Positions 26,783-33,515 of a DNA stretch of 64,000 bases are shown here, piece after piece (within the stretch, counting starts at the first letter, position 1; each line of letters begins with the position of its first letter). The stretch spans positions 62,001 to 126,000 of the forward strand of contig NZ_FZOB01000005.1 of assembly GCF_900188395.1 (NCBI RefSeq), given 5' to 3'. Both the position numbers and the translations under genes were made by a program. Under the pieces are notes generated by a model. The model was not told the origin of the DNA. It saw only the letters and a list, made by a program, of their open reading frames with translations, and ran no database searches. The stretch comes from Desulfurobacterium atlanticum. Lineage in GTDB: Bacteria; Aquificota; Aquificia; Desulfurobacteriales; Desulfurobacteriaceae.

Positions 26783-27820
26783 TTATTTAACGTGTATTTT
26801 TCCTTTTCCCTCTTTTACTACACCAACTTCTGAAAATTCTATTTGGTTATTTTTAAGTTCTCTTTCAAATTTTTCTGCGTGTTCTGGAGGAACAGAAATT
26901 AAAAGTCCCCCTGACGTTTGCGGGTCAAACAGAAGAAGTTTTAGCTCTTCTGAAATATGAGATGCGAAAGATACGTTGTCCCCCACATACTCAATATTTT
27001 CATACGTTGCTGCCGGCAGAAGCCCCATTTGAGCAAACTCAAAAGATTGAGGGAGAAAAGAGAAATTTTCACTAAAAATCTCCATATCAACATGGGAAAA
27101 TTTTGCCATTTCAAAAGTGTGCCCTAAAAAGCCAAAACCTGTTATATCGGTGCAGGCGTTTGCACCGATTTTAGTCATAATTTCTGAAGCTTTTTTGTTT
27201 AGTGTTGACATTACTTTTGTCGCTTTTTCAACGGTTGTATCTTTAGCCATGTCAGCTTTTATTGCTGTTGTTATTACTCCTATACCAAGGGGTTTTGTGT
27301 AGTAAAGAATATCTCCCGGTCTGGCAGTTGAGTTTCTGATTATTTTTTCCGGGTGTGCTATTCCCGTTACAGATAGTCCATATTTTGTTTCAAGATCGTC
27401 AACGGTGTGTCCACCAATAAGGGATACTTCAGCTTCTTTTAGTTTATCAGCTCCACCCTGTAATATTTTGGGAAGAAGATTTTCTGGCACTTTACAGGAG
27501 GCAAACATTAGAAGGTTTATTGCGGTAATCGGCGTTCCTCCCATTGCGTATATATCTGATAGGGCGTTGGCAACGGCAATCTGCCCAAACATATAAGGGT
27601 CATCAACAACCGGAGTGATAAAATCGGCCGTTTGAATAAGAGCAATTCTGTCTGTCAATTTATAAACTCCGGCGTCTTCTGCCGTTTCAATACCTACAAT
27701 AACGTCTTTATCCCTATAAATGCTCAGGTTGCTGAGCAGTTTCTCAAGCCCGACCGGGCTAAGCTTTGCTCCTCAGCCTGAAGCTCTTACAGTAGTTGTG
27801 AGCTTAAATTTTTCTTTCAT
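26783..27820 (-). CDS. selD: Selenophosphate synthetase SelD, selenocysteine-containing (in-frame UGA)
   Basis: SelD makes selenophosphate from selenide and ATP for selenoprotein and selenouridine synthesis. The ATG at 27820 opens a 345-residue frame with one in-frame TGA at 27775-27773 (codon 16). The context SGUGAKLSP matches the catalytic loop of SelD (GCGCK in E. coli, Cys17), so UGA is selenocysteine rather than a stop. A bSECIS hairpin follows at once. The remaining marks are normal: DDPYMFGQIAVANALSD, GGHTVDD, CTDITGFGFLGH and FDPQTSGGLLI. Any caller that treats UGA as stop begins the gene at 27658 and loses the active site. The start overlaps the NERD gene stop by four bases. Confidence 0.93.
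27734..27771 (-). promoter_or_regulatory. bSECIS element for UGA-selenocysteine insertion in selD
   Basis: Directly after the UGA the transcript can fold into an outer stem GAGCA/UGCUC (27771-27767 with 27738-27734), an inner CUU/GAG pairing, a bulged U (27746), and an apical stem AGCCC/GGGCU closed by the tetraloop GGUC (27755-27752). The GU in the apical loop and the bulged U just below it are the features SelB recognises in the E. coli fdhF element. The loop lies 17 bases after the UGA, which is within the known range. Confidence 0.88.
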
Positions 27821-28710
27821 ACCTGACTTTTTCCTTTTCTTATGATTTGTTGGCATTTATAACAATAAGCTTTTCCACCAAAAATTTTCTTCCTATCCCA
27901 GCAGTAGAGAGCTTCCTTTTCAGAAATAGTTGCTTTACATTTTGCACAAAAATATTGACGTGGGGGTTTATAATCTGTGATTTTTTCTTTTATATTAAAA
28001 TATTTATACCAGTTTACCTCGCTTTTCCTATGAAAACGAAGAAGTTTTCTTGCGAAGGTTTTTACAGTTTCTTCTGAGGAAAGTTTTACAATGTCCAGAA
28101 TGATTCCTAAGTTTTCAGCATTTTTCTGTGTAATATTGTATATCTGATCTGCTTTAATTATAGAACTTGTATCAAATTTATCTTTTTGAGGTCTTTTAAT
28201 GATTGTATTTGGATGAACAAGCACGTAAGAGAAATATCTTGGTTTGATTCTTATTCCGAAACTTACAGGAAGCAACTTTTCATTTTCTATTATCTCTTTT
28301 AAGAGAGCCTGATGGCGTAAATTCTGTTCTATAGGAGAAGGTATTCCAAATCTGCTTTTTTTATAGTGAATGATAAATTCACCTGTTTCTGTAATTTCTA
28401 TTTTTTGTCCCATATTTTTTGTTTCAAGGATGTAAATGTGGAAAAGTCGGTTTATTAACAGATGGTCTATTTGAGCCACTCGCCCCTTGTATTCAAGTCT
28501 AAGGTCATGTAGGACAAACCAGTTTTTGGAATCTTTGAAGTAGAAGTTTATGAAGTAAGCAGCGTCTTTTTCTCCTTTTATTCCTTTTCTTATTCTGTAA
28601 AGCTCTCTTTCTATGAGAAAAATCTGTCGTTTTGTTAGGTCTTCCCTTTTCAAGAGTTTTTCCAGTTCTTCTATTTCTTTTTTTCTATAAGTGGCTTCTT
28701 TTATAATCAT
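27817..28710 (-). CDS. NERD-domain protein with C-terminal zinc ribbon
   Basis: Protein of 297 residues. Residues about 40-130 form a NERD (nuclease-related) domain: GIKGEKDAAYFI, then VLHDLRLEYKGRVAQIDHLLI, then IYILETKNMG, which has the D...E-x-K pattern of restriction-like nucleases. The C-terminus holds two CxxC pairs (CAKCK and CYKCQ) with a Cys between, typical of a zinc ribbon. The function is unknown; NERD proteins are often linked to DNA processing or stress. It is encoded between rlmH and selD, and its stop overlaps the selD start. Confidence 0.75.
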   Translation of the reverse strand: MIIKEATYRKKEIEELEKLLKREDLTKRQIFLIERELYRIRKGIKGEKDAAYFINFYFKDSKNWFVLHDLRLEYKGRVAQIDHLLINRLFHIYILETKNMGQKIEITETGEFIIHYKKSRFGIPSPIEQNLRHQALLKEIIENEKLLPVSFGIRIKPRYFSYVLVHPNTIIKRPQKDKFDTSSIIKADQIYNITQKNAENLGIILDIVKLSSEETVKTFARKLLRFHRKSEVNWYKYFNIKEKITDYKPPRQYFCAKCKATISEKEALYCWDRKKIFGGKAYCYKCQQIIRKGKSQV

Positions 28711-31921: not shown

Positions 31922-32476
31922 TTATACACACGGAGGAATTTCTATAAGTCCCAAGTTGCCGTCTTTACGTTTATAAAGCACTGCTGCTTTTTTTGTTTTT
32001 GCGTTACAGAAAACAACAAATTCTCTATTTGAACTTAAAAGCTTAACGGCAGCATCTTCAACGGTAATAGGTTTATAGAGCTCGGGCTCTACTTCTACAA
32101 TTCTAATAGGTTTTTCAGTTGTTTCCTCTTCTATGAGAGAAAACTCTTTTATACCTTCTCTGTTGTGTCTTTTATTTTGAACTTTATCTTTCAATCTTCT
32201 TAACTGTTTTTCTGCTGCGTCAACTACTTCGTCTATGGATGTGTAAAGGTCATCTGTTTCTTTCTTTATCCTGATTGTATGGTCAAAAATGTTATAGATT
32301 ACTATTTCTACAGAAGCTCTGTATTTTTCTTTAGATACGATTACATCTGCAAAAACTTCTTCTTTTGCACTTCCAAGATACTTTTCAAGTTTCCCGAATT
32401 TCTCGTTGATTATGGATTTTAGAGCATCTGTCAGGTCAAGGTCTTTTCCGATAATATTAAGCTTTAAGGTAGCCAT
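31922..32476 (-). CDS. hpf: Ribosome hibernation promoting factor, long form
   Basis: Protein of 184 residues with an N-terminal HPF/YfiA domain (MATLKLNIIGKDLDLTDALK, then EYRASVEIVIYNIF-like strand, DDLYTSIDEVVDAAEKQLRR) and the C-terminal dimerisation domain of long HPF (RIVEVEPELYKPITVEDAAVKLLSS). Long HPF joins ribosomes into 100S dimers in resting cells. A good ribosome site (aaaggaggatgggg) precedes the ATG. Confidence 0.93.
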   Translation of the reverse strand: MATLKLNIIGKDLDLTDALKSIINEKFGKLEKYLGSAKEEVFADVIVSKEKYRASVEIVIYNIFDHTIRIKKETDDLYTSIDEVVDAAEKQLRRLKDKVQNKRHNREGIKEFSLIEEETTEKPIRIVEVEPELYKPITVEDAAVKLLSSNREFVVFCNAKTKKAAVLYKRKDGNLGLIEIPPCV

Positions 32477-32546
32477 ACCCCATCCTCCTTTTTCTGGTCT
32501 TATATTTAAAGTATTACTAAATAAATGGTTTGGGAAGAGAGGATTT

Positions 32547-33515
32547 ATGAAAAAAGCTTATTTGCTGTTTTCTGGAGGTCTCGATAGCATTATTGCAGCT
32601 AAACTTTTAAGGAATGCTGGATTTTCTGTCATAGGAGTTCATTTTAAAACACCGTTTTTTGGTAAAAGCGAAAAGGAGTTGAAAAAAGTTGCTGAAACTC
32701 TTAATATAGACCTTGAAATTATTGATATTACCGAAGAATTTTTCCCTGTTCTAAAGAACCCTCCTCACGGATACGGTAAGAATGTAAATCCTTGTATTGA
32801 TTGTAAAGTACTTATGCTGAGAAAACTTAAAGAGATTGCTGGTGATGGGATTATCGCTACAGGAGAGGTTTTAGGCCAGAGACCTATGTCTCAAAGAGGC
32901 GATTCCTTAAAAAGAATAGAACGGATTGCAGGTCTTAAAGGAAGAGTTTTCAGACCCCTTTCAGCCAGGTTGCTTCCAGAGACAGTTTATGAAAAGGAAG
33001 GAATTATTAAAAGAGAGTATTTTCTTGATATTAAAGGTCGTTCAAGAAAACGTTATCCTGAGATAATAGAAAAGATAGGACTTAATATGGAGAATCTTCC
33101 AACGCCTGCAGGGGGGTGCCTTTTAACTGAACCTTCATTTGCTGGAAAGGTAAAAGATTTGATTACACATGACCAGCTAACTGTAAAAGATGCAGAGCTT
33201 TTAAAGATAGGAAGACATTTTCGTATAGGTAAAGGAAAGCTTGTTGTTGGAAGAAATAGGGAAGAGAACCCTAGATTAAAAGAGATATTTGAGGATGGAG
33301 AGATTTTATTATATACTGAAAGTGTACCAGGACCTACAGGTTTACTCAGGTGGGATAGTTCCGATTCAACTGTTGAGCAAGCTGCGATGATTGTTGCAAG
33401 ATATTCTGACGGAAAGGACAGTGATAAAGTTTCTGTAATTGTTAAACAGAATGGGAAAGAGAAAAAGATGGAGGTTTCTCCAGGAATAGATGTTGCACCT
33501 TTCAGGGTAAATTGA
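32547..33515 (+). CDS. PP-loop ATPase (MnmA/ThiI-like) fused to NFACT-R-like domain
   Basis: Protein of 322 residues. The N-terminal half is a PP-loop ATPase: SGGLDS at residues 9-14, a possible catalytic or zinc pair Cys83/Cys86 (NPCIDCK), TGEVLGQRPMSQ and Cys191 (AGGCLLTEP), as in tRNA thiolation enzymes related to MnmA and ThiI. The C-terminal part (about 225-270, LVVGRNREENPRL then ESVPGPTGLLR) resembles the NFACT-R (DUF814) domain. Together they suggest an enzyme that thiolates RNA with sulfide or a persulfide. The ATG at 32547 follows AGAGG; the longer frame from 32406 would run into hpf. The gene is divergent from hpf. Confidence 0.72.
   Translation: MKKAYLLFSGGLDSIIAAKLLRNAGFSVIGVHFKTPFFGKSEKELKKVAETLNIDLEIIDITEEFFPVLKNPPHGYGKNVNPCIDCKVLMLRKLKEIAGDGIIATGEVLGQRPMSQRGDSLKRIERIAGLKGRVFRPLSARLLPETVYEKEGIIKREYFLDIKGRSRKRYPEIIEKIGLNMENLPTPAGGCLLTEPSFAGKVKDLITHDQLTVKDAELLKIGRHFRIGKGKLVVGRNREENPRLKEIFEDGEILLYTESVPGPTGLLRWDSSDSTVEQAAMIVARYSDGKDSDKVSVIVKQNGKEKKMEVSPGIDVAPFRVN

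Follow-up and report, generated by a model that had tools for sequence, protein, structure and literature searches.

The question raised by this locus, which lies within a 64,000 nucleotide window (the whole stretch of DNA analysed here), is whether a selD gene with a UGA codon in its active-site motif is translated through that codon with insertion of selenocysteine (Sec). The first-pass annotation had proposed that it is, on the basis of a UGA at codon 16 within SGUGAK and of a following stem-loop with an apical GGUC, and both features were found as described (Table 1). In our view the locus encodes a Sec-containing SelD of the ordinary bacterial kind, from a Desulfurobacterium-like organism within the Aquificota, and its UGA is decoded by means of the GGUC hairpin; we assign to this reading a probability of about 0.97. 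Sec-SelD is a textbook selenoprotein, and the gene described here is a clean example of a well-known arrangement; the accompanying remark, that the gene depends on the very selenium donor which it serves to make, is right, and has long been known for Sec-SelD.

Table 1. Features of the selD locus, in window coordinates.
Feature	Position	Strand	Basis
selD, selenide, water dikinase (selenophosphate synthetase), 345 residues, predicted Sec at residue 16	26783..27820	(-)	Translation; TIGR00476; Pfam AIRS and AIRS_C
In-frame UGA, codon 16, predicted to be read as selenocysteine	27773..27775	(-)	Translation; structure-chain alignment; 21/21 full-length family members
ATGA overlap of the selD start codon with the stop of the upstream NERD-domain gene (28710..27817)	27817..27820	(-)	ORF list; domain search
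bSECIS core: stem AGCCC/GGGCU, apical loop GGUC (27755-27752) 17 nt after the UGA	27747..27760	(-)	Folding, alignments, recoding
Extended hairpin including the outer GAGCA/UGCUC helix	27734..27771	(-)	Folding; relatives compared

Reading Frame and Protein

The selD frame opens with an ATG at 27820, its stop codon ends at 26783 on the minus strand, and it contains exactly one in-frame UGA, which lies inside the motif SG-U-GAK; with this codon read as Sec the N-terminus of the protein is MKEKFKLTTTVRASG-U-GAKLSPVGL. The full reading matches TIGR00476 with 371.5 bits (cut-off 125) over positions 1-310 of the 311 in the profile. Residue 16 aligns with Cys in 2yye and 3u0o, the two closest solved full-length SelD chains, and the catalytic Sec/Cys-x-x-Lys pattern of the SelD N-terminal loop is present as U16-G-A-K19. 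The overlap of the start codon with the NERD-domain gene is of the ATGA type, a common layout among coupled genes, and fits both a coupling of translation between the two genes and a selD start at an ATG ahead of the UGA. A plain ORF caller takes as its first start the TTG at 27658, 54 codons late, and returns an ORF of 291 aa. The warning that standard annotation would lose the first 54 residues is therefore justified for naive ORF callers, but not for RefSeq, which annotates Sec-SelD through the UGA in the two records checked. No second full-length SelD was found in the genome, in which the remaining matches to the SelD model were weak, well below the cut-off, and probably represent the same-fold families ThiL, HypE, PurM, and PurL. 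Among the best 80 loci listed, the closest named relative was a Desulfurobacterium sp. MAG (L051), with 78% identity.

Selenocysteine Machinery and Proposed Mechanism

A search of the genome for selA, selB, and selC, on the last two of which the first-pass annotation had made its proposal depend, found all of them, and the genome thus carries the complete Sec-decoding trait. SelA was matched with 621 bits and SelB with 392 bits over its length, including winged-helix domains, which in known SelB proteins bind the hairpin. The tRNA-Sec scored 81.8 bits (cut-off 47) and has the anticodon UCA (read as TCA by ARAGORN). A tRNA 2-selenouridine synthase, SelU/MnmH, is also encoded (G000:C1:248253-249149, L166; 301 bits), and selenophosphate therefore has another use in this organism. 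According to a survey of 2006, Aquificae were not known to have the selenouridine trait (PMC1794560).

Under the mechanism that we propose, translation would start at the ATG at 27820. SelB, attached to the GGUC hairpin that lies 17 nt downstream of the UGA, would bring Sec-tRNA(Sec) to codon 16; SelA would have formed this Sec-tRNA(Sec) out of Ser-tRNA(Sec) and selenophosphate, which SelD itself makes. The resulting full-length SelD would carry Sec in its N-terminal selenium-binding loop; its selenophosphate would return to SelA and would very probably also be used by the SelU/MnmH of the same genome. We infer the insertion of Sec into SelD, the binding of SelB to the hairpin, and the enzyme activity of SelD from the sequence features described here.

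The Hairpin Downstream of the UGA

The first base of the hairpin AGCCC-GGUC-GGGCU lies 12 bases downstream of the UGA. The consensus bSECIS model, as summarised in PMC13188914, has a loop of 3-9 nt with an early G, a stem of 4-16 bp, and a distance of 16-37 nt; the selD hairpin, with its GGUC loop, contiguous 5-bp stem, and spacing of 17 nt, fits this model. Folding of 27771-27734, a check put forward together with the original proposal, gave -16.0 kcal/mol and a z of -2.56, with five of 200 shuffles equally stable. When codons 17-30 were recoded synonymously at random, with local codon usage, an equally stable fold arose in 0.15% of cases, and 0.15% of cases likewise gave a GGUC loop at the spacing found here, closed by 5 bp or more of stem. 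The outer GAGCA/UGCUC helix was not conserved among the relatives compared.

One structural detail of the first-pass annotation, a bulged U, did not stand as a feature of the element. A bulged U is predicted on the 3' side of the hairpin, where it arises from the encoding of Leu20 by CUU; the base at this position varies among the 19 distinct family sequences (A in nine, C in five, U in three, and G in two), so that the U is a third-codon-position variant, and with an A in its place the stem simply closes. It is neither a conserved feature nor a demonstrated homologue of the bulged U of E. coli fdhF, a type of bulge which is absent from the bSECIS constraints quoted from the summary in PMC13188914.

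Conservation and Selection

All 21 full-length SelD sequences of the family, from 21 genomes, have exactly one TGA, at codon 16, and protein conservation extends to either side of it. Upstream of the UGA the stretch FKLTxTVRASG is conserved as protein with synonymous codon change; no variation is seen in T8, T10, V11, R12, A13, S14, and G15, although synonymous differences are found in most of the codons for these residues, and it follows that the part of the frame ahead of the UGA is translated. For codons 21-24 (AGC CCG GTC GGG, for Ser21-Pro22-Val23-Gly24) the synonymous entropy is 0.28 bits each, compared with 1.0-1.9 bits for the other invariant Pro, Val, and Ser columns of SelD and 1.1-2.0 bits for most other Gly columns; set against residues of their own type, the codons of the hairpin are by a wide margin those with the least synonymous change in the gene. 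Selection thus acts on the frame through the UGA and also on the RNA beyond the protein, as seen from the synonymous conservation of codons 21-24 together with the absence of the hairpin in two relatives with Cys. These two relatives (L038 and L039, in G059 and G061) read Cys from TGT and have no such hairpin at this place; a further, partial sequence (G062) also has no stop. L038 and L039 belong to one Aquificota genus outside the family of the genome studied here, and represent a Sec-to-Cys change within the phylum.

It is the synonymous conservation, and not covariation statistics, that carries the argument for selection at the RNA level. A paired change from C-G to U-A is present in the selD stem of G126, and in the selD of G128 (L024) the loop ends G..C have changed to A..U, with AGUU replacing GGUC. 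Covariation is sparse: the helix shows so little variation within the family that one compensated stem pair was seen among 23 sequences, and the shuffle control on pair changes was not significant. A TGA is present also in most full-length SelD of the Aquificaceae, in which selD has a hairpin of different sequence (GGUCC-GGN-GGACC), yet at the same place. Among the best 80 SelD loci in the named genome collection, a sample in which relatives of a Sec query are over-represented, all 78 readable at the motif have TGA.

These data bear on two other ways of reading the UGA. Its decoding as an ordinary amino acid (Cys, Trp, or other) instead of Sec is very improbable: the alignment of the position with the Cys of 3u0o and 2yye means that a Cys there would probably be functional, but the genome has tRNA-Sec, SelA, and SelB, the hairpin stands at the spacing of the bSECIS model, and the relatives with a true Cys encode it by TGT without the hairpin. 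Even harder to credit is a UGA that acts as a real stop, with a SelD that starts downstream (at TTG 27658 or later) and works without the N-terminal selenium-binding loop, for although the 291-aa ORF that is mechanically called from this TTG is still recognised as SelD by TIGR00476 (321.5 bits), the part lost would contain the catalytic Sec/Cys position, the UGA is invariant in the family, the residues on both sides of it are conserved with synonymous change, and the Sec machinery is complete.

Loss of Formate Dehydrogenase

Formate dehydrogenase is the usual client of Sec. Fdh-alpha was not found in the genome that contains the window, and no molybdopterin-domain (PF00384) protein was found in any of the four genomes of the genus (G000, G124, G125, and G126); such proteins are present in all 18 other genomes of the family, several of them with one TGA. 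With no detectable molybdopterin oxidoreductase, the four genomes of the genus hence have no formate dehydrogenase. In a paper on Thermovibrio ammonificans, formate dehydrogenase is marked as absent from Desulfurobacterium sp. TC5-1 (PMC5441870).

A search of the genome with a bSECIS search model gave selD as the sole match, the model being one which scores FdhA-type hairpins weakly (12.6-13.9 bits) and whose result does not exclude other hairpin types. A scan of ~194 kb (~11% of the genome), covering the window and the surroundings of selA, selB, selC, selU, and three hydrogenases, returned selD and four short noise frames, with no other candidate. The three hydrogenase large subunits were rejected as selenoproteins, being Cys proteins with no in-frame stop, and two weak matches to this bSECIS search model in sister genomes (L171 and L172) were rejected as lying in no qualifying open frame.

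Since there is no Fdh in the genus and SelU is present, SelA, SelB, and SelC may now serve SelD alone. We tentatively suggest, at somewhat less than even odds, that SelD is the only selenoprotein in the whole genus, that formate dehydrogenase has been lost, that SelA, SelB, and tRNA-Sec serve SelD only, and that the remaining output is tRNA selenouridine. If this is true, the Sec machinery would be a closed loop which is kept for its own donor enzyme. According to a published suggestion, the Sec trait can be maintained by SelD after the loss of FdhA (PMC1794560); should SelD be the last selenoprotein here, this suggestion would become testable in the thermophilic autotrophs of this genus. The genus would then join Helicobacter mustelae as a lineage in which it can be asked why a cell retains a whole translation system for a single residue that in relatives can be replaced by Cys.

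Comparison with Known Systems

Sec-containing SelD/SPS2 has been described in bacteria (TIGR00476; PMC4561486, PMC1794560), and is among the most widespread selenoproteins (PMC1794560, PMC13188914). The selD of the window has in common with these genes the Sec codon in the N-terminal active-site motif, a bSECIS directly downstream, and the full set of SelA, SelB, and tRNA-Sec. It differs in that SGUGAKLSPVGL is combined with AGCCC-GGUC-GGGCU, whereas most of the other sampled proteins, which are from other phyla, have GUAAKxGP or GUASKxGP and their genes often a hairpin of the GGUCC..GGACC type; this difference is one of variation only.

In Helicobacter mustelae SelD is the sole selenoprotein after the loss of Fdh (PMC4607533). 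As in that species, Sec-SelD and the Sec machinery have here been kept although FdhA is lost. Unlike in H. mustelae, the loss of FdhA spans all four sampled genomes of the genus and SelU is also present, and the status of SelD as sole selenoprotein is hypothetical.

In the same family, molybdopterin-enzyme (FdhA-like) genes with a TGA (G128, G123, and G120) have a GGUCU or AGUUU loop 18 nt after the UGA. Their bSECIS elements share a CC-RGUY-loop-GG core with the selD hairpin, and differ from it in having a loop of five bases instead of four. The AGUUU loop was seen in the gene of G120 (L152), and the first and last bases of the loop have changed together, from G..C to A..U, in two different genes (L024 and L152).

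Elsewhere in the window, a protein encoded at 32406-33515 (+), for which no NCBIfam model scored above its cut-off, has a ThiI/MnmA-like HUP domain in fusion with an RNA-binding domain of the NFACT-R_2 type.
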